From NCBI GenBank assembly GCA_902826155.1, contig CADEDU010000017.1, forward strand, positions 1 to 64,000: a stretch of DNA of 64,000 nt, read 5' to 3'. Position 1 is the first letter of the stretch; each line of letters begins with the position of its first letter. Both the position numbers and the translations under genes were made by a program. Source of the stretch: an uncultured beta proteobacterium (lineage in GTDB: Bacteria > Pseudomonadota > Gammaproteobacteria > Burkholderiales > SG8-39). The notes beneath the pieces were generated by a model. That model was not told where the DNA came from, did no database searches, and worked only from the letters and a program-made list of their open reading frames with translations. Below are positions 11,716-59,379 of this stretch, piece by piece.

Positions 11716-11722
11716 TGGGCTG

Positions 11723-13974: not shown

Positions 13975-13992
13975 GTCTGCACGGCACAGGCG

Positions 13993-25348: not shown

Positions 25349-25909
25349 ATGAAGTCCTCCCACTCCTTGGCCGCACTCAGCCTCGCGGCCATGCTGCTCG
25401 CTACCGTCCTGCCGGCCATCGCCGGCGAGGGCCATGACCACGGTGACGCGGCCTCCGCCGCCACCGGCACGGCGCTGCCGCGCTTCGCCGCGGTGTCCGA
25501 GACCTTCGAGCTCGTCGGCGTGCTCGACGGCAAGCAGATCACGCTCTACCTCGACCGCTTTGCCGACAACGCCCCCGTACGCGGCGCGCAGATCGAGCTC
25601 GAGATCACTGGGGCCCAGTTCAAGGCCGAGGCCCACGGCGACGACGCCTATAAGGTGGTGCTCAAGGAAGCACCCAAGCCCGGCGTGCTGCCGATCACCG
25701 CGACCGTGACCGCTGGGGCGGAGGTCGATCTACTGGCCGGCGAACTCGACCTGCACGAGGCCGCCCATACCGACGAGTCCGCGCATAAACATTCGTGGAA
25801 GGAGGTCGGCGGATGGGCCGCTGGCGGCCTGACAGTCCTTGCCGTCCTCGTGTTCGGCGGGAGACGCCTGATGGCCGCCCGCCAGATCCGCGCCGGAGGT
25901 GCAGCATGA
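25349..25909 (+). CDS. Periplasmic/membrane accessory protein between czcC and czcB
   Basis: 186 residues from ATG 25349. Signal peptide MKSSHSLAALSLAAMLLATV, then a metal-binding-like GEGHDHGD at the mature N-terminus, shared with the following CzcB (GEGHNHGE). A beta-rich domain of about 100 residues follows, then a His-containing stretch (HTDESAHKHSWKEV), one C-terminal helix (AAGGLTVLAVLVFGG) and a basic end. I do not recognise a named family. The duplicated GEGH.HG start suggests descent from or partnership with CzcB, perhaps delivering metal. The stop overlaps the czcB start (ATGA). Confidence 0.7.
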   Translation: MKSSHSLAALSLAAMLLATVLPAIAGEGHDHGDAASAATGTALPRFAAVSETFELVGVLDGKQITLYLDRFADNAPVRGAQIELEITGAQFKAEAHGDDAYKVVLKEAPKPGVLPITATVTAGAEVDLLAGELDLHEAAHTDESAHKHSWKEVGGWAAGGLTVLAVLVFGGRRLMAARQIRAGGAA

Positions 25910-27024
25910 AGCGCGCTTCGACGCATCGCCTGGCTTCGATCGGCGTGGTGCTGGCACTCGTCGGCCCACTGAACACGCAGGCCGGTGAAGGCCATAACCA
26001 CGGCGAGGCGCCCGCTGGGCCCAGCGCGAACGGCCCACAGCGCCAGCCTGGCGGCAGCGTCTTCCTACCCAAGCCGGCACAGCGCCAGCTGGTTGTGCGC
26101 ACGATGGTGGCTGCGGAGGCCGAGCTGCCGCGCTCGTTCGAATTAAACGGCAAGGTGCTGATGGACCCGAATGCGGGTGGCAAGGTGCAGCCGCTGAACG
26201 CCGGGCGCATCGAGCCCGGTCCGCGGGGCCTGCCGAATCCCGGGCAAGCGGTGCGCAAAGGCGAGGTGCTGGCCTATGTGGTGCCGTCAACCGCGCCCCT
26301 CGAGCGCTCGAACCAGTCGGCGCAACTGGCCGAGTTGCGCGCGGCCAAGTCGCTCGCCGAGAAGCGCGTGGCGCGGCTGAAGGAACTCTCGGATACCGTG
26401 CCTCGCAAGGACATCGAGGCGGCCGAAAGTGAGGCGGCCAGTTTGGCCGAGCGCATCGCGGCGGTCGGTGGAGGTCTCGCGACGCGCGAGGCCCTGGTCG
26501 CCCCAGTGTCGGGTGTGATCGCCTCAGCCCATGTGGTCGCCGGCCAGGTGGTAGACGCCCGCGAACTGCTGTTCGAGATCATCGACCCGGGCCGTTTGCG
26601 CATCGAGGCGCTGGCCTTCGAACCGGCGCTGGCAGCCGACGTCGGCAGTGCCTCGCTGGCGGTGGGTGACCAGCGTGTGCCGCTGGAGTATCTGGGCGCA
26701 GCGCGCAGCCTGAGAGAGCAGGCCCTGCCGCTGAGTTTCCGCGCCCAGGGAGCGGCCCTGAACAGCCTTGCCGTCGGACAGCCCGTGCGCGTCTTCGTGC
26801 AGACGAAGCAGAAGGTCAAGGGCATCGCAGTCCCGGTCGCGTCGCTGATGAAGAACCCGGCCAACCAGACCGTTGTCTGGGTCAAGACCGCGCCCGAACG
26901 CTTCGAGCCTCGCAGCATCACGACCGAGGCCCTCGATGGTGTGAACGTCGCCGTCACATCGGGCCTGAAGGCCGGAGACCGCATCGCCACGCAAGGCGCC
27001 ACCCTGATCAACCAGGTGCGCTGA
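25906..27024 (+). CDS. czcB: CzcB-type periplasmic adaptor (membrane fusion protein)
   Basis: 372 residues from ATG 25906, chosen because it overlaps the previous stop and begins a signal peptide (RLASIGVVLALVGPLNTQAG). The mature start GEGHNHGEAP is His-rich. The barrel-sandwich/lipoyl domain (KVQPLNAGRIEPG and LVAPVSGVIASAHV) flanks a coiled coil (about 125-195), followed by a beta-barrel domain. It links CzcA in the inner membrane with CzcC in the outer membrane. Two bases separate it from czcA. Confidence 0.9.
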   Translation: MKRASTHRLASIGVVLALVGPLNTQAGEGHNHGEAPAGPSANGPQRQPGGSVFLPKPAQRQLVVRTMVAAEAELPRSFELNGKVLMDPNAGGKVQPLNAGRIEPGPRGLPNPGQAVRKGEVLAYVVPSTAPLERSNQSAQLAELRAAKSLAEKRVARLKELSDTVPRKDIEAAESEAASLAERIAAVGGGLATREALVAPVSGVIASAHVVAGQVVDARELLFEIIDPGRLRIEALAFEPALAADVGSASLAVGDQRVPLEYLGAARSLREQALPLSFRAQGAALNSLAVGQPVRVFVQTKQKVKGIAVPVASLMKNPANQTVVWVKTAPERFEPRSITTEALDGVNVAVTSGLKAGDRIATQGATLINQVR

Positions 27025-27025
27025 C

Positions 27026-30000
27026 ATGTTCAAGTGGCTACTCGATAACAGCCTGACGAACCGGCTGCTGGTGATCATCGCCAGCGTCGTTCTGATGGCC
27101 TACGGCGCGTTCACGCTGTCGCGCACGCCGGTGGACGTGTTCCCCGACCTGAACAAGCCGACCGTCACCATCATGACCGAGGCCGGCGGCATGGCCGCCG
27201 AGGAGGTGGAGCAGCTCATCACCTTCCCGCTGGAGACGACCATGAACGGTCTGCCCGGCGTGGAGAGCGTGCGCTCAACCTCGTCAGCCGGCCTGTCCTT
27301 CCTCTACGTCACCTTCGACTGGAGCACCGACATCTTCCGCGCCCGGCAACTGGTGTCGGAGCGGCTGTCCTCGATGGAAGAAGGCATCGCCGAAGGCGTG
27401 GTGCCGCGCATGGGCCCGATCAGCTCGATCATGGGCGAGATCATGCAGATCGCCATTCCGGTCGATCCGAGCAAGATCAGCGCGATGGCCGTGCGCGAGT
27501 ACGCCGACTGGGTGCTTCGACCGCGCCTGCTCTCGGTGCCAGGCGTCGCGCAGGTCATCCCGATCGGCGGCGAGGTGCGGCAGTTCCAGGTGCAGCCGAA
27601 CACCACGCGCATGGCCGAGCTGGGCATCACGCATGACCAGCTGGAAGGCGCGCTGAAGGGCTACTCGTCCAACACCTCGGGCGGATTCCTGGAGCTGAAC
27701 GGCCGCGAGTACCTGATCCGCAACCTCGGTCGCACTTCGCGCCTCGATGACCTGAAGAACCTGGCGCTGACCTCGAAGAATGGCCAGCCCATCCTGATGC
27801 GGCAGATCGCCGAGGTCACGTTTGCAGCCGCACTCAAGCGCGGCGACGCCGGTTATGAAGGCAAGCCGGCGGTGATCCTGGGCATCCAGAAGCAGCCCAC
27901 CGCCGACACCATTGCGCTGACGAAGGCCATCGAGGACGCGCTGGTGGGGCTCAAAGCCTCGCTGCCGGCTGGCATGGAGGCACCGCGCGTGACCTTCCGC
28001 CAGGCCAGCTTCATCGAGGCCTCGATCACCACGCTGCAGGGCAAGCTGATCGGCGCCTCGGTTTTCGTGGCGGTGATCCTGTTCTTCTTCCTCGGCACTG
28101 TGCGGCCAACCGTCATCGCGCTGACGGCCATTCCGGTGTCGATCCTCATCACCGCGCTGGTCTTCAAATACTTCGGGCTGTCGATCAACACGATGACGCT
28201 GGGCGGCCTGGCCATCGCCATCGGCGGTCTGGTCGATGACGCCGTGGTGGGCGTCGAGAACGTGTTGCGGCGGCTGAAGGCCGACCGGGCCAACCATCCG
28301 AACAGCCGGTTGAACCCCATCGAGATCGTCGCGCACGCGACGATGGAGGTGCGATCAGCCATCCTCTACGCGACGGTCATCATCGTGCTCGTCTTCATCC
28401 CGCTGTTCGCGCTGCCGGGGCTGGAGGGCAGGCTGTTCGTGCCGCTGGGCATCGCCTTCATCGTCTCGACGCTGGCCTCGCTGATCGTCTCGGTGACGGT
28501 GACGCCGGTGCTCAGCTTTTACCTGCTGCCGCGGATGAAGAACCTGGACCACGGTGACACCAAAGTCCTGGCCTGGCTGAAGGCGCGTTATCGCAGCAGC
28601 CTGCAGAACGTGCTGGATCGGCCGAAGGCCGCCATGGCGGCGGCCGGTGTGGCCGTGCTGGTGGCCGCAGTGGCGGTGCCCTTCTTCCCGACGACCTTCC
28701 TGCCGCCGTTCAACGAGGGCTCGCTGCTGATCGGCCTGCGGTTGAACCCGGGCGTCACGTTGACGGAGTCCTCGGCCTTGGCACGCCAAGCCGAGGTATT
28801 GGTCAAGCAGGTGCCCGAGGTCACGCACGTCGGCCGTCGCAGTGGCCGGGCCGAACTGGACGAACACGCCGAAGGTGTGCACGTCAGCGAACTCGATGTC
28901 GGCCTCAAGCCCACTGCCGAGCTGACACGCAGCATGGACGAGATCAAGGCCGACATCCGCAAGCGCTTGGTGAACCTGCCCGCCGCGCTGGAGATCGGCC
29001 AGCCGATCTCGCACCGCATTGACCACATGCTCTCGGGTGTGCGCTCGCAGATTGCGATCAAGATCTTCGGCGAGGACCTCGATGCACTGCGCGGCCAGGC
29101 GGATGCGTTGCGCGCCAGACTGGCCAAGATACCCGGCATCGCCGACCTGCAAATCGAGAAGCAGGTGCTGGCGCCGCAGATCAAGGTGCGCATCGACTAC
29201 GCCGCGGCGGCGCAGTACGGCGTGCCGGCGCCGCAGGTGCTGTCGGCGCTGCAGGCACTGGTCGAGGGCGAGAAGGTCACCCAGATCGTCGAGGGCAGCC
29301 GGCGCTTCGCACTGGTCGTGAAGCTGCCCGAGTCGGCGCGCTCGGTCGAAGGCCTGGGCCAGATCCTGATCGAGACGCCGAACGGCCGCATCCCGCTATC
29401 GAAGATCGCCACCGTCGAGGACGGTGACGGCCCCAACCAAATCAGCCGGGACGACGGCAAGCGGCGCATCGTGCTGTCGGCCAATGCGTCCGGGCGCGCG
29501 CTGTCGGAGATCGTGGCCGACATCCGCAAGGTGGTTGCCGAAACCAAACTACCCGAGGGTTACTTCATCACCTTGGGCGGCCAGTTCCAGGCGCAGGAGG
29601 AAGCCTCACGCCGAGTCGGCCTGCTGTCGATCGTGTCGCTGACGCTGATGTTCGCGGTGCTCTACAGCCGCTACAAGTCGGCGGCGCTGTCGGCGCTGAT
29701 CATGGTGAACATCCCACTGGCTCTCGTCGGCGCGGTGATCGGCCTATGGCTGTCGGGCCAGCCACTGTCGGTGGCGGCCCTGGTCGGCTTCATCACGCTG
29801 GCCGGCATCTCGGTGCGCAACGGCATTCTGAAGGTCAGCCACTACATCAACCTGATGCGCTTCGAAGGTGAGTCCTTCGACCAGAAGATGATCGTGCGCG
29901 GCTCGCTGGAGCGGCTGAGCCCAGTGCTGATGACCGCGCTGGTGACGGCCTTCGCTCTCGCGCCGCTGCTGTTCGAGGCCGAGCAGCCCGGCACCGAGGT

Positions 30001-30145
30001 ACTTCACCCGGTGGCCGTAGTGATCTTCTCCGGCCTCATCAGCTCGACCCTGCTCGACACCTTCCTCACGCCCGCGATGTTCTGGCTCTTCGGTCGCAAG
30101 CCGGCCGAAGCGCTGATGGACGGCAAGGACGCCGAGGCGCTGTGA
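27026..30145 (+). CDS. czcA: CzcA-type heavy-metal RND efflux pump
   Basis: 1039 residues, twelve transmembrane helices in two halves, each followed by a large periplasmic loop. The proton-relay helix reads GGLVDDAVVGVEN, keeping the Asp-Asp-Glu pattern of heavy-metal RND (HME) pumps. The N-terminus LLDNSLTNRLLVIIASVVL and the segment PVDVFPDLNKPTV are typical of the family. It exports divalent cations (Co, Zn, Cd by context) using proton motive force. It lies in one operon with czcI, czcC and czcB. Confidence 0.93.
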   Translation: MFKWLLDNSLTNRLLVIIASVVLMAYGAFTLSRTPVDVFPDLNKPTVTIMTEAGGMAAEEVEQLITFPLETTMNGLPGVESVRSTSSAGLSFLYVTFDWSTDIFRARQLVSERLSSMEEGIAEGVVPRMGPISSIMGEIMQIAIPVDPSKISAMAVREYADWVLRPRLLSVPGVAQVIPIGGEVRQFQVQPNTTRMAELGITHDQLEGALKGYSSNTSGGFLELNGREYLIRNLGRTSRLDDLKNLALTSKNGQPILMRQIAEVTFAAALKRGDAGYEGKPAVILGIQKQPTADTIALTKAIEDALVGLKASLPAGMEAPRVTFRQASFIEASITTLQGKLIGASVFVAVILFFFLGTVRPTVIALTAIPVSILITALVFKYFGLSINTMTLGGLAIAIGGLVDDAVVGVENVLRRLKADRANHPNSRLNPIEIVAHATMEVRSAILYATVIIVLVFIPLFALPGLEGRLFVPLGIAFIVSTLASLIVSVTVTPVLSFYLLPRMKNLDHGDTKVLAWLKARYRSSLQNVLDRPKAAMAAAGVAVLVAAVAVPFFPTTFLPPFNEGSLLIGLRLNPGVTLTESSALARQAEVLVKQVPEVTHVGRRSGRAELDEHAEGVHVSELDVGLKPTAELTRSMDEIKADIRKRLVNLPAALEIGQPISHRIDHMLSGVRSQIAIKIFGEDLDALRGQADALRARLAKIPGIADLQIEKQVLAPQIKVRIDYAAAAQYGVPAPQVLSALQALVEGEKVTQIVEGSRRFALVVKLPESARSVEGLGQILIETPNGRIPLSKIATVEDGDGPNQISRDDGKRRIVLSANASGRALSEIVADIRKVVAETKLPEGYFITLGGQFQAQEEASRRVGLLSIVSLTLMFAVLYSRYKSAALSALIMVNIPLALVGAVIGLWLSGQPLSVAALVGFITLAGISVRNGILKVSHYINLMRFEGESFDQKMIVRGSLERLSPVLMTALVTAFALAPLLFEAEQPGTEVLHPVAVVIFSGLISSTLLDTFLTPAMFWLFGRKPAEALMDGKDAEAL

Positions 30146-35193: not shown

Positions 35194-36618
35194 TCAAGTC
35201 GGGCCTCGCGCTTCTTGTTCGAACGAAGAAAAGTGCGTCTCGAATTTGTCGGCGAGATCGAGTCCAGCTCGCCTGCGCGCCTCGTAGCGAACAATCTCGA
35301 AGCGTTGGTCTCGCACCGGCTCAACCCGCGGAAACTTGACCTTGTATCCGGCATGCGCGCCTTTGATCAACACAAACGCTTCGCCGATATCGAGCCCTGA
35401 AAACTCATCGGGCCGCACGCGATAGTCGTACTGCTCTCGGGTCGTGACTGATTCAGAGTTGGATTGCCCCGTGTTGTGGAACAGTTCCAGGTTCAGATTG
35501 ACGTTGCCTGAAGACCGACTCTGTCCGCGCGATTCCATGCGGAACTGCCGCAGAACCTCGCCCGTGACGCGCGCTGCCCACTCGCAGGTATTCACGTCCC
35601 CCAGTTGCAGAAAAGTCTGGATCTCGGTGTTGCCGATAACTTGGTCGGCGAAATCGTCGCTGACGTTCTTCAGGTTCGCATAGGTTTGGAACATCGGGAT
35701 CAGCGCTACCCGCGCCCCGCGCGCCATCTCGAACAGTTGCGCGACGAGCTTGTTCGCGTAGGCGCCGAACTCGTCCATCCACACTTGATGCGGCACCAGC
35801 GGTAGCTTCCAGCTCGGCCGCCGATACAGCTGCGCGAGCGTACTGCGCAGATCGCTCAGGAACAGCTTGGCGAAAGCAATCGCCGCCTCGCTCTTGTCGA
35901 GCGAAGGGATCATGAAATAGACGATCTGGTAGTTATCGATCGCCTGCAGCAGATCGACCTCGGGGTTGTAGCTGTTGAGTACCTTGCCCATCTCGCCGAC
36001 CGAATAGATGAACAGCCGCGACACCACCCCGCCCACCTGCTGGCGTAACGCCTGGGTGTTGATGCGCATGCGCTTGTGCACCGGGTCGTACACCCGATAC
36101 GACTCGAGCCAGATCTCGAAGCTCTGCCGCGCTTCGTTGGGTGGCAAGCGCCGCAGGAACCAGTCCATCGCTTCGGGGTTAGTGAGCAGGATGAACAGGT
36201 CCTTGGCGTTGTAGGCCAGGCCGGTGGACTTGATCGCCGTGAGCACCGCGGTGAGCCCGAGATTGGACTGCGATCGAAAGTGCTCGGCGGTCGGGTTGTT
36301 GCCGACATCGACCGTATCGGTGAAGCGCGACGCAACGGCGACGGCGTCACCTCGCAACAGGGGGCTATAAGTGTGGCTCTCGCTGGCGTTGTCGATGTTG
36401 ACCACTCGAAAGTCCGCCTGCCGGCCATAGGTGTGGCACAGCGACACCAGCTTGTCGCGAAACTCGAAGTCATTCTTCGAATCGAGAATGAACGCGCCGC
36501 CCCCACGCTTGAGCTGCTGGGCGAGCCGATGCAGGAGGTAGTTCGATTTGCCCGATCCTGAGCGTCCGGTGACCGACTCGTGGCGCAGCGCGCCTTCGTC
36601 GGTCAAGTACAGGTTCAC
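35194..36618 (-). CDS. traD: VirD4/TraD-type coupling ATPase lacking a membrane anchor
   Basis: 474 residues from GTG 36618, which overlaps the stop of the preceding small membrane protein. Walker A GRSGSGKS (18-25) starts almost at the N-terminus, then AFILDSKNDFE, Walker B VWMDEFGAY (about 279-287) and QVIGNTEIQTFLQ, all typical of TraD/TraG coupling proteins that bring the relaxosome to the channel. Usual members have two N-terminal transmembrane helices; none is present. The adjacent gene supplies two hydrophobic segments, so the anchor may be separate. The orientation is opposite to the transfer operon 19 kb away. Confidence 0.85.
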   Translation of the reverse strand: MNLYLTDEGALRHESVTGRSGSGKSNYLLHRLAQQLKRGGGAFILDSKNDFEFRDKLVSLCHTYGRQADFRVVNIDNASESHTYSPLLRGDAVAVASRFTDTVDVGNNPTAEHFRSQSNLGLTAVLTAIKSTGLAYNAKDLFILLTNPEAMDWFLRRLPPNEARQSFEIWLESYRVYDPVHKRMRINTQALRQQVGGVVSRLFIYSVGEMGKVLNSYNPEVDLLQAIDNYQIVYFMIPSLDKSEAAIAFAKLFLSDLRSTLAQLYRRPSWKLPLVPHQVWMDEFGAYANKLVAQLFEMARGARVALIPMFQTYANLKNVSDDFADQVIGNTEIQTFLQLGDVNTCEWAARVTGEVLRQFRMESRGQSRSSGNVNLNLELFHNTGQSNSESVTTREQYDYRVRPDEFSGLDIGEAFVLIKGAHAGYKVKFPRVEPVRDQRFEIVRYEARRRAGLDLADKFETHFSSFEQEARGPT

Positions 36619-45760: not shown

Positions 45761-48700
45761 TTATACAGCCGGGCCACTCGCGCGCGACATCGCGGCCTCC
45801 TCACGCACTCTTGCTCTCGTCGCATGGCGAATTGCCGCCCGATTCATCAAGTAGTACGCCCCTGGGATCACGATCATCGACAACAGCGGCGCGCTCACCA
45901 TGCCGCCGATCATCGGCGCGGCGATGCGCTGCATGACTTCGGCGCCGGTTCCGTCCGACCACATGAGCGGCGCAAGGCCGGCGAGGATCACGGCGACCGT
46001 CATCGCTTTGGGTCGCACGCGCAGCACCGCCCCCTCGTGAATCGCTTCTAGCAGCGCCTCGCGCGTGAGCACTGCGCCGTCCGCGGTACGCCGATCGATC
46101 GCCTGGCGGAGATAGATCAGCATGATCACGCCGAACTCGGCAGCCACGCCGGCAAGCGCGATGAAGCCGACGGCAGTTGCCACCGACAGGTTGTGACCTA
46201 ACCACCACATCAGCCAAAACCCACCCACCAGCGAGAACGGTAATGTCGCCATGATGAGCAGCGCTTCGGACAGTCGATTGAAGGTGAGATATAGCAACAT
46301 GAAGATGATCAGCAACGTGAAGGGCACCACGACGGTCAGCCGCGCTTTCGCGCGTTCGAGATACTCGAACTGACCGGACCAGCTCACCGACGTGCCGGGC
46401 GGGAGCTTCACGTTCTGCTCCACTGCGCGCTTGGCATCCTCGACCACCGATGCGAGGTCGCGCCCGCGGATGTCGACGTAGATCCAACCCGACAGTCGCG
46501 CGTTCTCGCTTTTCAGCATCGGCGGTCCATCGACGATCGACAGATGGGCCACCGCCTGCAACGGAATCTGCGCGCCGCGCTCGGTCACAATCGGAAGATT
46601 GCGCAGCTTCGCGAGCGAGTCGCGCAACTCGCGCGGATAGCGCACGCTAATTGGGAAGCGTTGCAGGCCCTCGATCGTCTCGCCGATGTTCTCCCCGCCG
46701 ATCGCCGCCGTCACGACCGATTGCACGTCGGACACGGTCATGCCGAAGCGCGCCGCCTCCTCGCGCAGCACCTTCACGTCGATGTAGCGCCCACCGGTGA
46801 TTCGCTCGGCCAGTGCGGAGGTGACGTTAGGCACGTCCTTCACCACGCGCTCGATCTCGCCCGCGACGCGCTCGATCACCGCCAGATCGGTGCCGGCGAC
46901 CTTGATGCCAAGCGGGCTCTTGATGCCGGTCGCGAGCATGTCGATACGATTGCGAATGGGCGGGATCCAGATGTTCGCCAAGCCCGGCAGCTTGACGATG
47001 CTGTCCAGCTCCTCGATAAGCTTCTCGACTGTCATGCCCGGCCGCCACTCATTTTTCGGCTTCAGCTGCACGGTGGTCTCGACCATTTCGAGCGGTGCGG
47101 GGTCGGTCGCTGTCTCGGCGCGCCCGATCTTGCCGAACACGCGCTTGACCTCCGGTACGGTCGCAATCAAGCGATCAGTCTGCTGCAAGATCTCCGCGGC
47201 CTTGCCGGGCGAGAGGCCCGGCAGCGCGGAGGGCATGTAGAGCAGATCGCCCTCGTCGAGCGGGGGCATGAACTCCCCGCCGACCCTACTCGCGGGAAAC
47301 CACGTCGCCGCGAGCGCAACGATCGCCAGGGCCAGTACCAACCAGGGTGCACGCAACACGCCGCGCAACACCGGCTCGTAGAGTGCGATCAGCAGTCGAT
47401 TGAGCGGGTTCTTGCGTTCGTCGGGGATACGCCCCCGAATCAGATAACCCATCAGGATCGGAATCAGCGTGACCGCCAGACCGGCGGAGGCGGCCATCGC
47501 ATAGGTCTTCGTATACGCGAGCGGCGAGAATAGTCGCCCTTCCTGGGCTTCGAGGGCAAAGACCGGGACGAACGACAGCGTAATGATGAGCAGGCTGAAG
47601 AACAGCGCCGGTCCCACTTCGCTCGCCGCCTCGCCGATCACGCGCCAGTGCTCAGGCCCCTGCAATGATTCGCTGGGATGCGCGTGGCGCCACGCCTCGA
47701 CGTGCTTGTGCGCGTTCTCGATCATCACCACCGCTGCATCGACCATCGCGCCGATAGCGATCGCGATGCCGCCTAGGGACATGATGTTGGCGTTCACCCC
47801 TTGGTAAAACATGACGATGAACGCGGCCAGGATGCCGAGCGGCAGACTGACGATCGCCACCAGCGAGGAGCGCAGGTGGAACAAGAACACGAAGCATACC
47901 AGCGCGACGACGATGAACTCTTCGATCAGCTTGTCGGTAAGGTGGGACACCGCACGCTTGATGAGGTCCGAACGATCGTAGGTCTCGATGATCTCGACCC
48001 CAGGCGGCATGCTCGACTTCAGCGAGGCGATCTTCGCCTTCACCGCGGCGATCGTCTCGAGCGCATTCTTGCCCGAGCGCATCACGATGATGCCGCCGGT
48101 GGCCTCGCCTTCGCCATCGAGCTCGGAGATGCCGCGGCGCATCTCCGGTCCGATCTGAATCCGCGCGACGTCACTGAGCCGCACCGGCACGCCGCGATCG
48201 GTGGTCTTGAGCGGAATCGAGCGGAAGTCGTCCAAAGTGCGCAGATAACCGCTCGCGCGCACCATGTACTCGGCTTCACCCAGCTCGACGATCGAGCCAC
48301 CGGTTTCCCGGTTGGAGTTTCTGACTGCCTCGATCACCCGGTTGTGCGTAATTCCGTACGCGCGCAGCCGATCGGGGTCGAGCACGATCTGGTATTGGCG
48401 CACCATACCGCCGACGCTGGCGACCTCGGCGACGTTCGGCACCGCTTTGAGCTCGTACTTCAGAAACCAGTCCTGCAGCGCGCGCAGTTGCCCCAGATCG
48501 TGGCGACCGCTCCGATCGATGAGTGCGTACTGATAGATCCAGCCGACTCCAGTCGCATCAGGGCCGAGTGCAGGCTTCGCGCTCGCGGGCAGTCGCGACT
48601 GCACCTGATTCAAATATTCGAGCACGCGCGAGCGCGCCCAGTACGGGTCGGTGCCGTCTTCGAACAGCACGTACACGAACGAATCGCCGAACATCGAATA

Positions 48701-48952
48701 CCCGCGCACCGTCTTCGCGCCGGGCACCGACACCATCGTCGTGGCGAGCGGATAGGTCACCTGATCCTCGACGATGCGCGGCGCCTGACCCGGGAATGGC
48801 GTACGGATGATCACTTGCACATCCGATAAGTCAGGAATCGCATCGAGCGGCGTGCGCAGCACCGCCCACCCCCCCCAGGCGGCGACCAGGAAAGTCCCGA
48901 TCAATACCAGGAGGCGATTCGTGATCGACCAGCGAATCAATCCGGCGATCAT
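45761..48952 (-). CDS. cusA: CusA-type copper/silver RND efflux pump
   Basis: 1063 residues, close to E. coli CusA in length and sequence. The methionine relay residues of CusA are conserved as LLYMPS, WRPGMT and NRIDML, which carry Cu(I)/Ag(I) through the pump. The proton-relay helix reads [16 protein letters not shown]. The C-terminal half contains [14 protein letters not shown], a family hallmark. It takes metal from the periplasm or membrane and exports it through CusC. The start (ATG 48952) overlaps the cusB stop by four bases, so cusCBA is one transcript. Confidence 0.95.
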
Positions 48953-50514
48953 TTCTTCGCTCCCTTCGGTGCGATGCGAACGATGACGTAGTTGCCATCT
49001 TTGTCCGGCTCGCCGCGCATGTCGAACTCGACGAAGTCGCCTTTCTTGAGCCCGGCAAGCGCCTTCTCATCCTCGACCCGAAATCCCATCGTCATTGCCG
49101 GCCACTTGATCGAAGGCATCGGGTCGTGGCTAAGGTTGATCTCGCCGGTCTTCCTGTTGATTTCGTTCACCTTGCCCAGGCCGCGATGTAGGCCGTTGAC
49201 AGTGCGACCGGAGGACGGGTTCTCGGCTGGAGCACCCGGCATCTCCTGCAATCGCGTGAGTGTGCCCTTCAGGCTCGCTTCCGAATCGACTAGGAATTGA
49301 CCCGACACGACGACGGTGTCACCGGCCTTTACGCCCTTGCGAATCTCGGTCTTGCCGTCCATCTCGAAGCCGACTTCGACATCGACCGGGCGGAACTTGC
49401 CTTCACCCTCGGCGAGGATGACGACTTTGCGCATGCCGGTTTCGATCACCGCCTCGGAGGGGACGATTGCGAGCTTCTCACCGCGGTGGGACGAAAAGGC
49501 AAGCGTCGCGAACATGCCCGGTTTGAGGCGCGCGTCAGGGTTCGCAAGCTCGATGCGCGCGCGCAGCGTACGCGTGGCCGCGTTTACCTCGGGCAGGAGG
49601 GCGCTGACCACTCCACGAAAGACTTGACCGGGCCATGCCGCGACTCTCACCTCGGCGCGATCCCCGGGACGCACCCACGCGGTCTGCGCTTCGGAAACCT
49701 CCGCATTGACCCACACCGTAGAGAGATCGACCAGGCGATAGAGCATCGCCCCCGCCATCACAGTCATGCCTTCGCGCACCCCGAGCTCAGCGATCACCCC
49801 ATCGATCGGCGAGACAATGGCGATGCGCGAGCGAGGAATGCCTTCGCGCTCGACCGCGGCGATCTCACCCTCGCTCATACCGAGTAGGCGCAGGCGCTCG
49901 CGACTTGCGACAACCAGATCGCGGTTGGCGGGCGCGTCACTCTTGAGTAAGAAGAGGAACTCATGCTGCGCGGCAGCCCAGTCTGGAACGAGCAACTCGA
50001 CCAGCGGCCCGCCTTTGCGCACCGGATCGAGTGGTGCCCGCGCATGCACGCGCTCCACGAACCCGCCGGTCCGCGGCTGCACGACTACGACGCCGCGCTC
50101 GTTGTACTCGACGCTGCCTACTGCCTCGAGCTTCTGCTCGAGCACCCCCATCTCGGCGCGGGCCGTGCGAATGCCCAGATTCTGCACTACGCGCGGATTG
50201 ATCGACACCTTGCCTTCTTCGCCGCCCGACTCCGCGTGCACCGGCACCAGCATCATGTCCATAAAGGGCGACTTGCCCGGCTTCTGGAACTTCTGCTGCG
50301 GGAACATCGGATCGTGCCAGTAGAGGACGCGCTTGCCGGTCTTGTCCTGCACCACGCCGTCGATCTCAGTCGCGTTCTCTCCCGATGTCGAAGCCTGTTG
50401 GGAGGGGCTAGCCTCCGCCATCGAACCCATGTTGCGCACGGCAAGCCAGTAGCCGGTTGCGCCAGCGCCCGCCATGGCGAGGAGCACGATCGAAGCAATA
50501 GCGACTCGTTTCAT
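48949..50514 (-). CDS. cusB: CusB adaptor with fused CusF copper-chaperone domain
   Basis: 521 residues. N-terminal membrane/signal helix, a heavy-metal-binding segment [20 protein letters not shown] ending in MDMMLVPV, then barrel-sandwich, hairpin and beta-barrel domains of an adaptor (about 100-420). After a linker (about 425-440), residues about 445-521 form a CusF-like domain: [30 protein letters not shown]. The Cu(I) ligands His, Trp, Met, Met of CusF are all present. In E. coli CusF is a separate periplasmic chaperone; here it is fused to the adaptor, which would feed metal directly to the pump. The stop overlaps the cusA start. Confidence 0.93.
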
Positions 50515-50517
50515 TGT

Positions 50518-51822
50518 TCAGTCCTCTCGTTCCACGTTGGTGCGCTCGTCTTCATCGAGCAACGCATAGCGCAGGTTCGCCCACGCGAGCGCGCGCTCGC
50601 GCTCGGCGCCAAGCGTGTCGATCGCGATCTCGTTTTCCGCACGGCGCGCTTCCAGCACCGCGGTAAGCGCTCCCTTGCCGCCTCGATAAGCGGCCGTGGC
50701 CGCGGCGGTGCGCTGGCGCGCTGTAGGAAGCAGAGCGTGCTGGTGGTGTTGTGCGCGTCGCTGCGCTGACTCGTGATCGGTGAGATAGAGCAGCAGCTCG
50801 GCCTCGGCGCTCCGACGCGCTTCTGCCACTAGCGTTCGTGCCCGCTCGAGACTCGCCAAGCGCGCCGCGACATCGCGGTCCTGCCGGCGCTCGGCCCACA
50901 GCGGCAGATCCATCTGGACCATCAGCGAGACCATGTTCGAGAAGGCAGGCTCACGGCGGGCGAAAGAGAGCTCTACCGCCCAGTCAGGTGCTCTTGTGGC
51001 GCGCGCCTTTTGCACATCCGCCTGCGCCATGCGTGTTTGCGCGAGCGCGGTGAGAAGCGCCGGATGGCGCTCGAGCCGCTGCGGGATCTGTGCTGTCGAA
51101 TAGGGTGGTGCGGTGGTATCCGGAACGGGGCCGGGCAAGACTGACGCGGATGCACCGGTCAAGCGCACGAGATCAACACGAGCACGCTGCACCATGCGAT
51201 CCTGCGTAATCGCGCGATCGCGCAGCGCCTCGCGCACCCCACGCAGCGTGAAGATTTCCGCCGCTGTCGCACGTCCAACTGCCAGCGCCGGCACGCTTGC
51301 TTCCACCTCGAAGCCGACTTGCTGGTCCAGCTCGTCGAGCTGGGCGCGTACCGCCTGCGCGTAGGCGTACTCCATCCACGCGATAGCCGTTTCACGTCGC
51401 ACCGCCGCGCGTTCGCGCGCGAGGCCGGCGCGCTCCGCGACAACCTCACTTTGCGCTCTCGATCGCGCGGCAGCGCGCTTGTCACCGTGTGGGAACTCCT
51501 GCATCACGCCGATGCGTTGCATCGTCATGAAATCGCGGTCGTAGCGAAATCGGTCGTTGTCAGTCACCGGCAGGTTCTCCAGCCCGAAGCGCAGCTTCGG
51601 ATCGGGCAGCTCGCTCGCGCGGCCAACGACCTCGGCCGCTCCTTGCACCGCCTGCGATTGCGAGGCCACTTTGAAGGATCGTGCAACGCCGAGCGCAACA
51701 GCCTCATCCAGCGTGAGCGGCGCGGACACGCTGATTTGTCCGAGCGCGATAAATGGGACGAGCATTACGAGAGCAAGTACGTATCGACCCGCACTTGCAC
51801 CAGAGAACTGCGTCGATTGCAT
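50518..51822 (-). CDS. cusC: CusC-like outer-membrane efflux protein
   Basis: 434 residues from ATG 51822, with GGAG about seven bases upstream; an open frame extends 35 codons further without a ribosome site. Signal peptide GRYVLALVMLVPFIALGQ. Two outer-membrane-efflux repeats of long Ala/Arg/Glu-rich helices follow; the first includes LTLDEAVALGV and ASELPDPKLRFGLENLPV, a pattern typical of metal-type OMF proteins. No lipobox is present, unlike E. coli CusC. Three bases separate its stop from the cusB start, so it leads the operon. Confidence 0.88.
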   Translation of the reverse strand: MQSTQFSGASAGRYVLALVMLVPFIALGQISVSAPLTLDEAVALGVARSFKVASQSQAVQGAAEVVGRASELPDPKLRFGLENLPVTDNDRFRYDRDFMTMQRIGVMQEFPHGDKRAAARSRAQSEVVAERAGLARERAAVRRETAIAWMEYAYAQAVRAQLDELDQQVGFEVEASVPALAVGRATAAEIFTLRGVREALRDRAITQDRMVQRARVDLVRLTGASASVLPGPVPDTTAPPYSTAQIPQRLERHPALLTALAQTRMAQADVQKARATRAPDWAVELSFARREPAFSNMVSLMVQMDLPLWAERRQDRDVAARLASLERARTLVAEARRSAEAELLLYLTDHESAQRRAQHHQHALLPTARQRTAAATAAYRGGKGALTAVLEARRAENEIAIDTLGAERERALAWANLRYALLDEDERTNVERED

Positions 51823-51871
51823 GGACTGCTCCTGTTGTTGATCGTTCAAACCGGCGACGCGTGCACGATGC

Positions 51872-52369
51872 TCATCGCGCTCCATTGCGCGACAGCACCA
51901 GTCCGCCCCACAGGTAACGGCGCGCAAGCCAGAGCGTCGCGACGGGGAGCGTCAGCCATTGCAAGACCGGAACAAGCCCGGTCCCTAGTCCCGGCAGGCG
52001 GGGCATGATGTCGGCGTACTCCCAGCGCGCAAGCGGGCCGGTGGCGAGGAACTCGTAGATCATCGTGAGCGCGAGCCCGACGATCATGTAGATCGCCGTC
52101 GGCGCTGGTTTAGGGATCAGCAGCCACGCGCGTGATCGCGCCGCAAGGGCCCCGATCCAGAACGCAACCAGTGCGATCAGCACATCACCAAGTGTTGCTA
52201 CGGTGCACGTGCGCACGCCCTCCCAATGCTGGAGTTCCGCCATTCCTACCCAAAACGGCGCCTGTATGAACTCCCACACGAAGTGCAGAAGAAACGCGAA
52301 TAGCCCGATCGGCAGCTCCGGCCATCCACGAAGTGTAGCGAGCGGCTTTTCGTTGGATATTGAATTCAT
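51872..52369 (-). CDS. Unknown integral membrane protein (about four helices)
   Basis: 165 residues from ATG 52369, which overlaps the stop of the patatin-like gene (TGATG). About four to five hydrophobic helices: IGLFAFLLHFVWEFIQAPFW, LGDVLIALVAFWIGALAA, AIYMIVGLALTMIYEFL and LVPVLQWLTLPVATLWLARR. The segment HFVWEFIQAP and Glu-containing helices recall small membrane proteins with buried acidic residues. I do not recognise a named family. Co-translation with the phospholipase and position before cusC suggest a role at the membrane during copper stress. Confidence 0.75.
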   Translation of the reverse strand: MNSISNEKPLATLRGWPELPIGLFAFLLHFVWEFIQAPFWVGMAELQHWEGVRTCTVATLGDVLIALVAFWIGALAARSRAWLLIPKPAPTAIYMIVGLALTMIYEFLATGPLARWEYADIMPRLPGLGTGLVPVLQWLTLPVATLWLARRYLWGGLVLSRNGAR

Positions 52370-54051: not shown

Positions 54052-54306
54052 ATGAGACATCTTGCCTGAGCGCTCGTCGTGACTTTAACTGCTCTAACCT
54101 CTCTTTCCGCGCTCGCGGCACCGCTCGAGTCATGGGAACGTGCACTGGAAAATGCGATCGAACGAACTCGGCAAGAAGGGCAGGCACAAGCGGCCGCACA
54201 TGACGAGCTGGAGGCGTTTCACAAAATTTCGCGCGACGCTGCCCAACAGCGTTACCGCTCGAGCATCGACATCGCGCGATTTGTCCTATTGAAGGATTCG
54301 CCATGA
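54052..54306 (+). pseudogene. Small exported helical protein with TGA in its signal peptide
   Basis: ATG 54052 has GGAG about seven bases upstream and opens MRHLA, then TGA at 54067-54069, then ALVVTLTALTSLSALAA in the same frame, a complete signal peptide interrupted by one stop. The mature part (about 62 residues) is an amphipathic helix, SWERALENAIERTRQEGQAQ and beyond. The TGA most likely replaced TGG (Trp). Re-initiation at GTG 54079 would give a protein lacking the positive n-region. The stop overlaps the MerR start. Function unknown. Confidence 0.55.
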
Positions 54307-54797
54307 AGCGAACGATTGGAAGTGCAGCGCGTGTTCTCGGCATGAGTCCGAAGACGATTCGTTACTACGAGGAGGTCGGGGTCGTGCCGCCGCCTCCGCG
54401 CGAAAAAGGCGGCAGGTTTTCCTTAGGCCGTCGCTTATTCGAAGTCCGAGAAATCGAGCGCCTACGCTTTGTCAAGGAGGCACGCCGCCTGCAGTTCTCG
54501 CTTAATGACGTGCGGCAACTCCTCGAGCAATACGAGTCCGGTCCGCCTTGCGGGTGCGCGGCGCGCCCATTGCTCAAGCGTCTCGTGGCACGGAGGCTGA
54601 ACGAAGTGCACGAGGCCATTCGCTCGCTCGAAGCGTTGCGCGACGAGCTTGGCGCGCTTGAAGCTCGTGTGCTGGCGCTTGAAGGTAAGACCCCAGCGGA
54701 ATTGGGGTCGGTCATGGTTCCCACACCGGTCGAGGCCTTGCTGCGCGGTACCGCAAAGTTGCCGGACCACCGTCCAGCCCAGGAAAATGGTGGTTGA
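54303..54797 (+). CDS. MerR-family regulator of the copper island
   Basis: 164 residues from ATG 54303. MerR winged helix-turn-helix (TIGSAARVLGMSPKTIRYYE, residues 4-23), wing (EKGGRFSLGRR) and dimerisation helix (about 92-125). The only cysteines are C83 and C85 (PPCGCAARP) just before the dimer helix, so the metal site differs from CueR, which uses a C-terminal pair. Given its neighbours and the operator directly downstream, it likely senses Cu(I)/Ag(I) and controls the small peptide gene. It ends three bases into the -35 box of that promoter. Confidence 0.8.
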   Translation: MKRTIGSAARVLGMSPKTIRYYEEVGVVPPPPREKGGRFSLGRRLFEVREIERLRFVKEARRLQFSLNDVRQLLEQYESGPPCGCAARPLLKRLVARRLNEVHEAIRSLEALRDELGALEARVLALEGKTPAELGSVMVPTPVEALLRGTAKLPDHRPAQENGG

Positions 54798-54829
54798 TCT
54801 TCCAGTGGCTGGAACTTTAAAAATACAAT
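54794..54829 (+). promoter_or_regulatory. CueR-type operator-promoter for the GCPLCW peptide
   Basis: TTGATC (54794-54799) is a -35 box. It is followed at once by the perfect dyad TTCCAG-TGG-CTGGAA (54800-54814) and then AT-rich CTTTAAAAATACAAT. A dyad TTCC...GGAA directly after the -35, with an 18-19 base spacer to a TAAAAA/AAAAAT -10, is the arrangement of CueR/HmrR copper promoters (for example E. coli copA). It reads rightward into the peptide gene at 54898. Confidence 0.75.
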
Positions 54830-54897
54830 CCGGGAGCGCACGCCGTGCTTCCGAGGCGTCGCAGGGCGCCGTTACAACGGATGACATGGAGGTATCA

Positions 54898-54981
54898 ATG
54901 AAGCTTGTTAATGCGGTACTCGGAGCGGTGCTGTTGGCGGCGGCGACTTTTGCCTACGCGGGCTGCCCGCTCTGCTGGTAA
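54898..54981 (+). CDS. 27-residue secreted Cys peptide (mature end GCPLCW)
   Basis: Start ATG 54898 has GGAGG six bases upstream (54888-54892). The product is a textbook signal peptide (basic MKLVNAV, hydrophobic LGAVLLAAATFAYA) followed only by GCPLCW and TAA. Cleavage after AYA would release a hexapeptide with a CxxC pair; if YAGC works as a lipobox, it would be a lipidated CPLCW instead. It lies under the CueR-type operator and is followed by a hairpin. A copper-responsive micro-peptide that chelates Cu(I) in the periplasm is my inference. I know of no named family. Confidence 0.6.
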   Translation: MKLVNAVLGAVLLAAATFAYAGCPLCW

Positions 54982-54983
54982 TA

Positions 54984-55018
54984 AAGCTCGGCGCCCTGGG
55001 AGTTCCAAGACGCCGAGT
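54984..55018 (+). terminator. Hairpin after the peptide gene
   Basis: CTCGGCG pairs with CGCCGAG across a 17-base loop, three bases after the peptide stop. There is no T-run, so it may be a weak or factor-assisted terminator, or an mRNA-stabilising 3' hairpin. It limits the unit to operator, peptide gene and hairpin. Confidence 0.5.
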
Positions 55019-55022
55019 CGTC

Positions 55023-55919
55023 CTAACTTGATACGTTGGGTGCTGCTTCCAACAAAAACCGCCATGGGCCACATACGTCAAGCTCGCGAAGATCGCTCCG
55101 CAGTAGCGGCACCACTAGACGGCGCCAAGGTCGTATGCGACGGCTGAACAGAACGGGTCCGATACGGAGGGAGAGCGGACAGTCCGCGCTTGATGGCGCG
55201 CGATTGGCGCTGAACGGGATCGCTTCTTTGCGTGCAACCGCCAGCCCGGCCTTCCTGCACGCCGCCTCGAGCTTGCGTGTAGAGAGTCGGTTCAGATAGT
55301 CGGTCAGCGTGTTTTGACCGGCGAACGGATTGGCGCGCATGGCACCGTTCGCAGCGCGCAGAAACGTTACCCTCAGAGACGAACAAGTGCGCCCAGGGAA
55401 TGTTGATCAACGGGTAGAAGTGATGGCCGTGCGGATGTGCCCACGGCATCCATTTGATGAACACGCGTCCGTGCGGCGCCAACACACGGCGCCATTCCGG
55501 GACGATCGCTTCGTTTTTGATTACTGCTCCATCGCATCAAAGCATGAGATGGTATCGATCGAAGCATCGGACAGGGGAATAGACTTCGGCTGGCCTTCAA
55601 TGAACGTGACGCGGCCGCTGAGTTCGCCGCTATCGAGTCTCGCGCCTGCGTCCGTGATGCTCTCAGGGCTCAAAACGATCACGACGACGCTTCCCGCGCC
55701 CGATTGCGCGATCGCTTGCGCCAAGTCGCCGCGAGGCAACGGAAGTCGAGCACGCGGGGGCCTTGGATCGCGCGTTGATCGACGTAAGCAGAGAATTCTT
55801 TGAGGAGTCTGAGCGCGCCACGCCGAGTATGCCTCCGTCGTGACAGTCGCTCCCACTGGCTTGGCGTGGTCGTTTCGTAAGTGCCATTCGCAGGCCTTAG
55901 CCGGGACTGGCTCCATCAT
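55023..55919 (-). pseudogene. Class I SAM methyltransferase, multiple frameshifts
   Basis: Fragments in three minus-strand frames assemble into a methyltransferase. They are LKEFSAYVDQRAIQGPRVLD (motif I region), DLAQAIAQSGAGSVVVIVLS, GRVTFIEGQPKSIPLSDASI then DTISCFDAMEQ, RRVLAPHGRVFIKWMPWAHP (with HGHHFYPLINIPWAHLF) and LNRLSTRKLEAACRKAGLAV ending RELDVCGPWRFLLEAAP. Each transition needs a shift, and several stops intervene. It has been inactive for some time. It sits between the copper-responsive peptide and CopA and may mark an old insertion. Confidence 0.65.
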
Positions 55920-56212
55920 GGAGAACGACGGCGCAAGTGATGGATCGGCCCCCTCAACCCGTAACGAGGACAGGTGTCACGAAACACGCGACACGGAACG
56001 TCGACGTACGCGGTAGATCCGCCCCCAAATGGGAAACGGCGGGCGGTCGTGCGTCGTCTCGATCATCGAAACGAGCCCGTGATCGTGGGCATCTGAAGGT
56101 CCCGACTGTCGTGCCCAGGCCTTGACTTGCGTCCTGCACATACGCCTAGGGTGGTCGACAGGCTCCGCACCCCAGGTGGCCGGTAAGTTCTTCTACGAGC
56201 GAGGCAAGTTCA

Positions 56213-56467
56213 ATGATCCAACCATCGTCCAGATGCGTATGCGTCCTGGTCATCGCGTTGTCGGCGTGCGCGAGTCCGGGACCGACCGGTCGGCCGAGCG
56301 CGGAAGTGAGTTCGGAGGCCGCGCGGCGCGCCGAAGACTACGCGTGGCGTTGTGAGATGATGACCAGTCTCGATCGTGTGGCCTGCCTCGATCTGCTTCC
56401 GTGGCGTGTGCCGGGGTACTTTGGGGAGCGCGTAGATCCCTTCCGGGCACCCGCACCCAAACGGTGA
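56213..56467 (+). CDS. Small lipoprotein of unknown function
   Basis: 84 residues from ATG 56213, with GAGG about ten bases upstream. Signal peptide with lipobox LSAC (VCVLVIALSACAS). The mature 65 residues are hydrophilic with two further Cys (YAWRCEMM, VACLDLLP) and a Pro-rich end (YFGERVDPFRAPAPKR). I do not recognise a family. It lies alone on the plus strand, 110 bases from the end of the convergent copA gene. Regulation is not evident. Confidence 0.6.
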   Translation: MIQPSSRCVCVLVIALSACASPGPTGRPSAEVSSEAARRAEDYAWRCEMMTSLDRVACLDLLPWRVPGYFGERVDPFRAPAPKR

Positions 56468-56576: not shown

Positions 56577-59009
56577 TCATTCCATCGCGGCGCGCTTCAG
56601 TCGCAGTGCATTGAGGACCACCGATATCGAACTGGCAGCCATCGCAATGCCGGCAATGATCGGCGAAAGCAAAACACCGAAGACGGGGTAAAGCACACCG
56701 GCCGCGATCGGAATGCCCGCCGCGTTGTAGAAGAACGCGAAGAACAAGTTCTGCTTGATATTGCGCATGGTGGCGCGCGAGAGCATCGCCGCACGGACGA
56801 TCCCGCGTAGATCGCCTTTGACCAATGTGATGCCGGCCGCTTCCATCGCGACATCCGTGCCGGTCCCCATGGCGATGCCGACATCGGCTTGTGCCAACGC
56901 CGGCGCATCGTTGATGCCGTCGCCGGCCATCGCAACCTTATGGCCCTTCGCCTGCAGCGCTTTCACGTGTGCGGCTTTGTGCTCGGGTAATACTTCGGCG
57001 AGGACCTCGTCGATGCCCAGTTGCTCGCCGACGGCTTCAGCCGTTGCGCGTGCATCACCGGTGAGCATGACCACTTGTACGCCCAGCTGCTTCAAGCCCG
57101 CGAGCGCCTGCGGAGTGCTTTCCTTGATCGGGTCCGCCACCGCGAGCAGTCCACCGGGCTTACCATCGACCGCGAAGAACACTACCGTCTTGGCTTCGGC
57201 TCGCCAACGTTGTGCCGTTGCTTCGAAGGGAGCCACATCGATGCCAAGGCTGGCCAGAAACGCCCGGCTGCCAATCAAGACGTTCCGCCCTTCGACTTGT
57301 GCCGTGACGCCTTTGCCGTTTTCGACGTTGAACGCGCTGGCGGGTTGAATGTTCGCGCCGCGCTCGCGCGCTCCGATTACGATGGCGCTCGCGATCGGGT
57401 GCTCGCTCGACTGCTCGACGCTCGCCACCCATCCGAGCGCCTGCTGCTCAGCCATCCCTGGCGCCGTTTCGAAGCCGACCAGGGCCGGTTTGCCCAGCGT
57501 AAGCGTTCCCGTCTTGTCGACGACCACGGTGTCGATGTCGCGCATGCGTTCGATGGCCTCGGCGTTGCGAAAGAGGATGCCCCCTTGCGCACCGCGGCCC
57601 ATCGCGACAGTCATGGAAATCGGTGTCGCGAGGCCCACCGCACACGGGCAAGCGATGATGAGCACGGCGACTGCGTTGATCAATCCGTAGACGAATCGCG
57701 GTTCTGGGCCGAAGAACCACCAGATCAGGCCGCTCACGACAGCGATGACGACGACGATTTGCACGAAGTAGGCCGCGATAAGATCGGCTAGGCGCTGGAT
57801 CGGAGCGCGTGTGCGCTGCGCCGCTTGCACCATGCCGATAATTCTTGCCAGCAGCGTCTCCGAACCGATCCGTTCCGCGCGCATCACAAGCGCTCCGTTA
57901 CCGTTGATCGTAGCCCCGGTAACGTGATCGCCGGTCGTCTTGGAAACCGGGATCGGCTCTCCAGTGATCATCGATTCATCGACGTGGCTCCTGCCGTCGA
58001 TGATGATCCCGTCGACTGGAACCTTCTCGCCGGGCTTGATCCGAAGGCGATCGCCGATCTGCACCGCTTCGAGCGCAATCTGTTCTTCGGAGTCGTCCGC
58101 GCGCAATCGCGAGGCCGTGCTCGGCGCGAGTTTCAGCAATTCCTTGATCGCCTGACTCGTTTGCCCCATCGCGCGCATCTGCAGCACATCGCCCAGGATC
58201 ACCAGCGTCACGATGACCGCTGCCGCTTCGAAATACTTGCCGACAGCGCCGTCGTGCTCGCGGAATTGAACCGGAAAGATCTCAGGGAAGAGTAGCGCGA
58301 CCAGGCTGAACACGTAGGCCAAGCCCACGCCCAGGCCAATCAGGGAGTACATATTTAGCGCCCAGGTTTCGAGCGACACCCAGAACTTGCGCAGGATCGG
58401 CGCACCGACCCAAAGCACGACCGGCGTACCCAAGACGAACTCCACCCAACCGCGCACTGTAGGGCGCAACCCGAACGGCTCCATGACACCGATCATGGGC
58501 GCCATTGCGAGCATGACGAGCGGAATCGACAACCCAATCCCGCTCCACATGCGACGGGTGAGATCAGCGAGTTCTTTCGCCTCGGCCGCTTCGTTCGAAG
58601 CACCCATTGGCACAAGGGCCATGCCACAGATCGGACAATCGCCTGGTCCTGGCTTGACCACCTCCGGATGCATCGGACAGGTATAGCCGGCATCGGCTGG
58701 TGCGCGGGCGTCGAGTCGTGAGGCGGCCCGCGCAGGCTTCTCGGGCGATCCGTGGGTGAACTTGACGGGATCGGCTATGAACTTCGCCTTGCATCCGACG
58801 CTGCAGAAGTAGTAACGCGCGCCACCGTGTTCGTGATGATGCACGCTCGAGGGCGCGACGCTCATGCCGCACACGGGATCGCGTTCCGCGCTGCCGGGGC
58901 GCGGCTCCGATGTATACGGCAGGTCTGTGTATTCGTGCTGACGCGCAGCATCCTGCGAGGGCAAGGCACCCGTGGGCGCTTTCACTCGCTGACGATGAGA
59001 ATCGTTCAC
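56577..59009 (-). CDS. copA: CopA-type copper-exporting P-type ATPase with YHS domain
   Basis: 810 residues from GTG 59009, with GGAG six bases upstream; a TTG start 57 bases earlier is possible. N-terminal YHS domain ([10 protein letters not shown] at 42-51 and [10 protein letters not shown] at 68-77), then a heavy-metal-binding segment CPMHPEV...[10 protein letters not shown] (about 111-134), instead of the usual HMA domains. Membrane motif CPC ([10 protein letters not shown]), phosphorylation DKTGT, TGEP, hinge GDGINDAP. It exports Cu(I) from cytoplasm to periplasm. Family members with YHS plus CPxHP segments occur in proteobacterial copper islands. Firm by motifs. Confidence 0.93.
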
Positions 59010-59379
59010 ATAGATCTCCAAGCTCAGGTCGCAAGCTCCTGGACAACGTTGGTTTTTGGAGGGCAACTATTCACTGCGATTCCTCGCCCCGCTGCAGCGT
59101 TGCCAAGGTCGATCGGAATAGGACTCTGGCGATCGTTCATCGTTCCACACGCTTCGTTTCGTCCGGGTAACGCGTCGGCTGTCGGGGAAACTGGCCCGAG
59201 TGCTGAACCGCTTGCGAAGGGGGCGCGGACGCTCGCGGCCCGACGTGAGAGGGCGTTTTGATCTGCAAATGGACTACATTAGTTTCGAATACTGGCACAA
59301 TTGGCTCCACCCTGATCGGCACGCTGGCCCTAGTTAATGTGCTCCTGCCGACGCAGAATGATCACTATTGAGGGACGAG
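59010..59379. other. Divergent promoter region between copA and pdxR
   Basis: 370 bases between the starts of copA (minus) and pdxR (plus). The half nearest pdxR (59240-59340) is AT-richer, with repeated TGG-CA/CTA words (TGGACTA, TGGCACAAT, TGGCCCTA) that could serve as MocR-type binding sites; this is speculative. No CueR-like dyad was recognised before copA. Confidence 0.4.

Follow-up and report, generated by a model that had tools for sequence, protein, structure and literature searches.

MerR-type regulators are known from operons for pumps, chaperones and enzymes. The locus described here resembles CueR/HmrR copper operons in combining a MerR-type regulator with an operator of the TTGAC-TTCCAG-N3-CTGGAA type, but the target of that operator is an exported-looking peptide of 27 residues and not an ATPase. 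Its regulator also differs from CueR, in that it carries a CGC motif at the start of a helix, has no loop cysteines and scores under the CueR cut-off.

Bufferins, as PMC12452194 presents them, share with this peptide cysteines and a Sec-type signal peptide (predicted in our case), and the extracytoplasmic metal buffering that is reported for them is what we propose here. Unlike bufferins, the peptide has a predicted mature part of only six residues, no linked MNIO partner and a MerR regulator of its own. CutF and CruR leader peptides (DUF2946) are similar in their signal peptide (CutF), paired cysteines and copper context, and their published descriptions give C-terminal proline-rich or RAPP arrest motifs for CutF (PMC9973294) and CruR (PMC9426467). 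Our peptide, in contrast, carries no arrest motif, and no recognised gene lies directly downstream of it in the window (the whole stretch of 64,000 nucleotides analysed) or in five of nine copies from Limnobacter. The Limnobacter copies also recall mercury loci with MerR, MerT and GDCCVxC genes, because the same five copies have a GDCCVxC gene facing that of the peptide, with MerT-like and MerR-like genes present in three. Unlike mercury loci, the pair comes with a regulator and an operator of its own and is oriented against the GDCCVxC gene, and no GDCCVxC, MerT-like or MerR-like neighbour was seen beside the window copy.

Operator, peptide gene and regulator in the window

The -35 plus operator block, TTGATC-TTCCAGTGGCTGGAA (54794-54814), overlaps the 3' end of the MerR-type gene (Table 1). 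The earlier note had described a perfect TTCCAG-TGG-CTGGAA dyad right behind the -35, and direct reading and shuffle tests both confirm it. The dyad exceeds chance: with at most one mismatch it occurs once in the window, against 0.10 expected from shuffles, and the -35 and dyad together, with up to three mismatches, give two matches, which are one place read on both strands, against 0.03 expected. Together with a 19-base spacing and a TTGAC-like -35, which in the window reads TTGAT, the dyad makes this a CueR/HmrR-type operator. The AT-rich -10 that had been proposed is present as AAAAAT, but it is of only moderate strength. We looked for an ordinary promoter with 16-18 spacing at the window peptide gene and found none, as expected of a MerR-type promoter.

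Table 1. Features of the regulator-peptide locus, in positions of the window
Feature	Position	Strand	Basis or remark
MerR-type regulator gene, 164 aa	54303..54797	+	Only cysteines C83 and C85 (GPPCGC); CGC is residues 83-85
-35-like hexamer TTGATC	54794..54799	+	Sequence; shares its TGA with the MerR stop codon
MerR-type operator, perfect dyad TTCCAG-TGG-CTGGAA	54800..54814	+	Sequence, shuffle tests, similar Limnobacter dyads 5' of the peptide
-10-like AAAAAT at 19-base spacing	54819..54824	+	Inferred from sequence
Shine-Dalgarno GGAGGT	54888..54893	+	Sequence
27-residue peptide gene	54898..54981	+	Sequence; nine Limnobacter relatives; selection
Predicted signal peptide MKLVNAVLGAVLLAAATFAYA, A-x-A before the cut	54898..54960	+	Sequence; A-x-A in 10 of 10 copies
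Predicted mature hexapeptide GCPLCW	54961..54978	+	Sequence; CPLC in 10 of 10 copies
Stem-loop 3' of the peptide stop	54986..55018	+	Folding energy, shuffles

The same type of dyad was surveyed in 108 other MerR loci (Limnobacter left out, L083 overlapping L002). The pattern TTGA-N2-TTCCA-N5-TGGAA matched 29 times in 25 of them, and, since these loci were picked as MerR relatives, the matches show the usual targets of the dyad and not its frequency. The longest ORF starting within 400 bases of the pattern was of ATPase size (684-958 aa) for 16 matches and a MerR gene, judged by its start, for eight; it was unclear for five (L022, L027 once, L035 twice, L040). Ten downstream products were compared with family models, and all four ATPases exceeded the copper ATPase cut-off (TIGR01511) while three of the six regulators exceeded that of CueR. 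This position before copper ATPase and CueR genes supports the earlier designation as a copper-type operator.

The peptide ORF starts at ATG 54898, behind what had been called a strong ribosome site and is indeed a GGAGGT, translates as MKLVNAVLGAVLLAAATFAYAGCPLCW and stops at TAA 54979-54981; its end reads AYA/GCPLCW, with the stroke at the predicted cut. The hairpin reported after the stop is a stem-loop of -18.2 kcal/mol, which none of 200 shuffles equalled in stability. It lacks a T-run on the + strand and has a T-rich tail on the - strand, and a role as terminator for the window peptide mRNA is therefore uncertain.

The regulator immediately upstream, whose CGC motif had been recognised correctly, exceeds the Pfam cut-offs for MerR_1, MerR and MerR-DNA-bind. 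It falls below those of the metal-specific subfamilies, with 62.3 bits for CueR (TIGR02044; curated cut-off 147.4), 58.1 of 150.85 bits for mercury MerR (TIGR02051) and 63.4 of 151.45 bits for CadR/PbrR (TIGR02047), and it is also far under the NCBIfam ZntR cut-off. One Limnobacter regulator likewise stays below all of the first three, at 58.5, 67.9 and 67.5 bits, respectively.

A protein search with the window regulator returned 98 matches, of which the first 37 (P0001-P0037), one of them named Colwellia, form a separate group with an invariant CGC. GPxCGC occurs in none of the remaining 61 (P0038-P0098), the nearest being EPPCGC in P0045. When the 38 clade members, window included, were aligned, the CGC pair proved to be the sole cysteines in 34, and the other four have one extra cysteine each, at differing positions; none has the pair of CueR loop cysteines (Cys112, Cys120). 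In a profile alignment C85 falls on a CadR cysteine, C77 by count, where the long helix begins. An AlphaFold model of the regulator (mean pLDDT 85.5) places CGC in the loop preceding helix 88-126, and Foldseek ranks CadR first for this model, with CueR close behind. PMC7911910 gives Cys82/Cys117/Cys126 for mercury MerR and Cys112/Cys120 for CueR, and reports that a Ser77-to-Cys change broadened the GolS/CueR response to divalent metals; C85 falls in the region where this paper places MerR Cys82. The regulator, likely a metal sensor of the MerR type, thus has a helix-start CGC and no loop cysteines, and these features do not specify its metal.

At the start of the regulator gene, a 75-aa ORF (54079-54306) overlaps it by four bases. 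An ATG at 54052 is in the same frame as this ORF and is followed five codons on by a TGA, like an interrupted signal-peptide start.

Recurrence of the pair in Limnobacter

A contig scan found, among the matches listed, at least two Limnobacter loci (L001 and L003, in genomes G001 and G003), whose regulators are 35 and 33% identical to that of the window. Both have the same kind of dyad and encode the peptides MKVKLFAAAVGLFGLVSVAMAACPLCS and MKVKLFTAAVGVFGLVGVAMAVCPLCA. We then considered 16 genomes of G001's genus. The regulator is found at E <= 1e-28 in seven (eight hits), and a peptide profile detects nine copies in exactly these seven genomes; in profile searches, both are absent from the other nine. 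The regulator adjoins all nine copies, as the link to MerR genes proposed earlier would have it, although in one (the second copy of G381, L136) it is split by a frameshift that leaves an operator variant and the peptide intact. The Limnobacter peptides end in [AVE]CPLC[AS], and all ten copies, window included, keep 27 residues, A-x-A and CPLC. Each also stops one residue past CPLC, which rules out a truncated larger protein. The strict operator TTGACNTTCCAGNNNCTGGAA has five matches in the 16 genomes, every one before a peptide copy, and the four remaining copies have a one-base variant of it. From the dyad to the ATG there are 52-54 bases in every one of the nine Limnobacter copies and 83 in the window. 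Regulator, operator and peptide gene thus form a conserved two-gene module.

The pattern of mutation supports the reading frame. Change between distinct Limnobacter copies is mostly synonymous, in agreement with the conservation anticipated in the earlier note: G001 and G375a differ by 17.0 changes at 20.8 synonymous sites and by 4.0 at the 60.2 remaining sites, and G380 and G375a by seven synonymous changes and no nonsynonymous one. A third-position excess (p < 0.05) is seen in 13 of 15 pairs of six Limnobacter copies, pairs that are not independent of one another; the exceptions are G003-G380 and G003-G375a. Within CPLC the codons for Pro and Leu show synonymous variation, and both Cys codons are TGC throughout. 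Near-identical copies (G372, G376, G375b, G381b), with no synonymous and 0-2 nonsynonymous differences, are uninformative on selection. Ungapped comparisons of the window with Limnobacter give a dS of 1.2-2.1, which is near saturation, and a high dN of 0.66-0.89, so that support there comes only from the kept length, A-x-A and CPLC. On the strength of codon-position bias and the co-occurrence of regulator and peptide we reject a chance ORF.

The two genes remain neighbours in at least three different settings. In the window it lies between an outer-membrane efflux protein gene (50518-51927, - strand) and a copper P-type ATPase gene (56577-59066, - strand) whose product exceeds the TIGR01511 cut-off. 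No recognised same-strand gene occurs within 1.5 kb 3' of the window peptide, where five + strand ORFs (54905-56467) have no family match. In five Limnobacter copies (L120, L121, L122, L126, L127) the GDCCVxC (seleno)protein gene and the peptide gene are arranged tail-to-tail with 39-67 bases between them, and same-strand ORFs 3' of the peptide overlap the GDCCVxC gene. Three of these five have an adjoining MerT-like gene, recognised by motif, and a MerR-like gene close by. In the other four copies the same strand carries, 55 bases downstream, a gene of AraC type that is truncated in one of them. A CDF gene is near the pair in Limnobacter sp. 130. One example each of GDCCVxC (NF041374), mercury MerR (TIGR02051), MerT and the CDF transporter was confirmed by family models.

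At L123 and L125 the pair adjoins three genes, which encode a 697-aa protein, an AAA ATPase and a protein of 496 aa; at L124 two of these genes are in view and that of the 697-aa protein is out of view. By size and order this block resembles a transposition set, but only the AAA domain is recognised, and family searches did not bear out a TniA/B/Q identity. By eye, the stretch from promoter to ribosome site in L081, L082 and L113-L118 contains a short palindrome, GGGA-N3-TTCCC or a variant of it, which could be a second operator or a 5' hairpin.

Proposed function and competing explanations

Our preferred reading, to which we give an even chance of being correct, is a metal-inducible module that exports a six-residue dithiol peptide and so buffers a soft metal. 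The CGC loop of the regulator, at the start of the dimerisation helix, would take up Cu(I) or another thiol-loving ion, for instance Hg(II), and the metal-bound regulator would then remodel the 19-base-spaced promoter to yield a short mRNA, on which the peptide would stand alone in the window. Sec export of the pre-peptide and its cleavage after A-x-A are predicted, and would release X-CPLC-X, that is, GCPLCW in the window and ACPLCA or close forms in Limnobacter. The two thiols of the hexapeptide, whose mass is by arithmetic about 0.6-0.7 kDa, with about 677 Da for GCPLCW and about 576 Da for ACPLCA, would chelate metal in the periplasm, and the hexapeptide could also exit through porins, lowering free metal around the cell. 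We infer the inducer, the metal binding and the protective effect of the peptide. Copper is the likely inducer in view of the operator type and the window neighbours; mercury is possible, and is a live alternative because of the GDCCVxC, MerT-like and MerR-like neighbours in Limnobacter and the helix-start cysteine. Against this reading, a hexapeptide is an unusual chelator, and it might be lost or degraded. Judged by the residues before the cysteine, a lipoprotein is possible for some copies (LAAC, in several) and unlikely for the window (YAGC) and G375b (LAEC).

More tentatively, and with distinctly less confidence than in buffering as such, the pair may be a mobile two-gene defence, in which a CGC-type MerR switches on an unmodified exported X-CPLC-X that would be the smallest dedicated bacterial metal ligand or a metal-triggered peptide signal. 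Its gene would have gone unnoticed because annotation passes over genes of 27 codons, and the finding suggests that exported genes of this length escape annotation. If the peptide binds metal, the cell would be defended by a cheap, diffusible, ribosome-made dithiol; if it signals, metal stress would be linked to neighbours.

Instead of protecting the cell, the hexapeptide might act in metal acquisition, in redox exchange or as a signal between cells. Its CPxC motif is of a redox type, the peptide is small enough for porins, and in five Limnobacter genomes the strict operator serves the peptide gene, with its predicted six-residue mature product, and nothing else. The operator type and window neighbours, however, indicate metal excess, and the contexts seen share no receptor or importer; we regard such a role as unlikely. 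We are similarly doubtful that the peptide stays uncleaved, as a one-helix membrane microprotein whose CPLC end would tune a transporter at the membrane face. Its 27 residues with one hydrophobic stretch would suit this, and metal transporters are near (the copper ATPase in the window, the CDF gene in Limnobacter sp. 130), but all ten copies have A-x-A right before X-CPLC-X, as a signal-peptidase site would, and no transporter is common to all contexts seen.

A signal-like start, two cysteines and an RNA stem-loop past the stop would also be consistent with a leader peptide that senses metal and, like CutF or CruR, controls the gene after it, and the four Limnobacter copies with an AraC-type gene have the corresponding arrangement in form. 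Such a role is very unlikely overall, if conceivable for these four copies, because a downstream gene is lacking in the window, where no recognised same-strand gene is close, and in the five copies where the opposing GDCCVxC gene occupies that position, and because there is no arrest motif, the single Pro being within CPLC. Sec-exported copper cysteine peptides known as bufferins (PMC12452194) make a modified peptide (RiPP) of bufferin/methanobactin type conceivable, but we think it highly improbable given the lack of an MNIO link: the MNIO enzyme (PF05114) occurs in one of seven peptide genomes, on another contig, versus one of nine others; none of eight window proteins scanned, peptide included, is MNIO; and the peptide has no bufferin model match, its sole MNIO-RiPP match (E 0.014, 16.1 of 40 bits) covering the signal part. 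Finally, the RNA of 54830-55030 folds better than shuffles (z -2.54), which could mean that the mRNA is the product and the peptide is not, or that the ORF arose by chance. The third-position bias, the invariant CPLC and the strict co-occurrence with the regulator make this the least credible of the explanations considered.

Distribution and wider surroundings

The regulator-peptide pair is rare. In a draw of 369 genomes, 48 passed a regulator threshold of 1e-20 and none besides the centre genome was a clade-level match, the best having an E-value of 1.3e-27 versus 4.2e-43 for the centre; a peptide profile in this class draw likewise found the centre only. At 1e-28, draws of 399, 320 (an overlapping draw) and 398 genomes gave no regulator besides the centre. 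The earlier note had suggested a search near MerR genes for small proteins with a signal peptide and a CPxC(W) end, and we scanned 113 sequences (112 MerR loci, of which L081, L082 and L083 overlap L001, L003 and L002, and the window) for small ORFs that end in C-x-x-C. A signal-like start with A-x-A before CPLC is found in the window and the Limnobacter loci, and nowhere else among the 113. ORFs in L109, L029, L031 and L037 and two others in the window passed the small-ORF filter, but by eye are not of this kind. The earlier interpretation is partly supported: the two-cysteine micropeptide is conserved, looks exported and belongs with a MerR regulator and a copper-type operator, while induction by copper, cleavage, and metal binding or signalling stay at the level of proposals. 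The refuting outcomes that the note had named for the reading frame and for the link to MerR genes did not occur.

The note had also stated that it knew of no described family. For nine aligned peptide sequences no Pfam or NCBIfam model exceeds its cut-off (best E 0.014), and we take the weak matches to be signal-sequence noise; a published description of the CPLC peptide was not found in the open-licence papers searched. Viral contigs gave no match, and no plasmid DNA match to the pair was found. With the window regulator, plasmids gave 43 records, all below 60% identity and none covering 80%; the Limnobacter regulator gave at least 5000, and those among the matches listed are all below 60%. 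Searches of 5.8 billion proteins with the peptide recovered six Limnobacter-like peptides, present as longer ORFs (P0099-P0104), and a longer ORF from the window itself; such short genes are probably under-represented in the collection.

By eye, the ORF list of the window includes another heavy-metal ATPase and two efflux sets of RND type (20388-22655, 25795-30145, 45761-50514), as well as conjugation-like genes at about 7430-15918 and 35194-36618, so that the whole has the look of a metal-resistance island. On the - strand at 55078-55919, pieces in different frames resemble a degraded methyltransferase gene, of which 55524-55919 has a weak Methyltransf match and 55081-55485 has none. The best plasmid matches to 42000-64000 are to an RND efflux gene.
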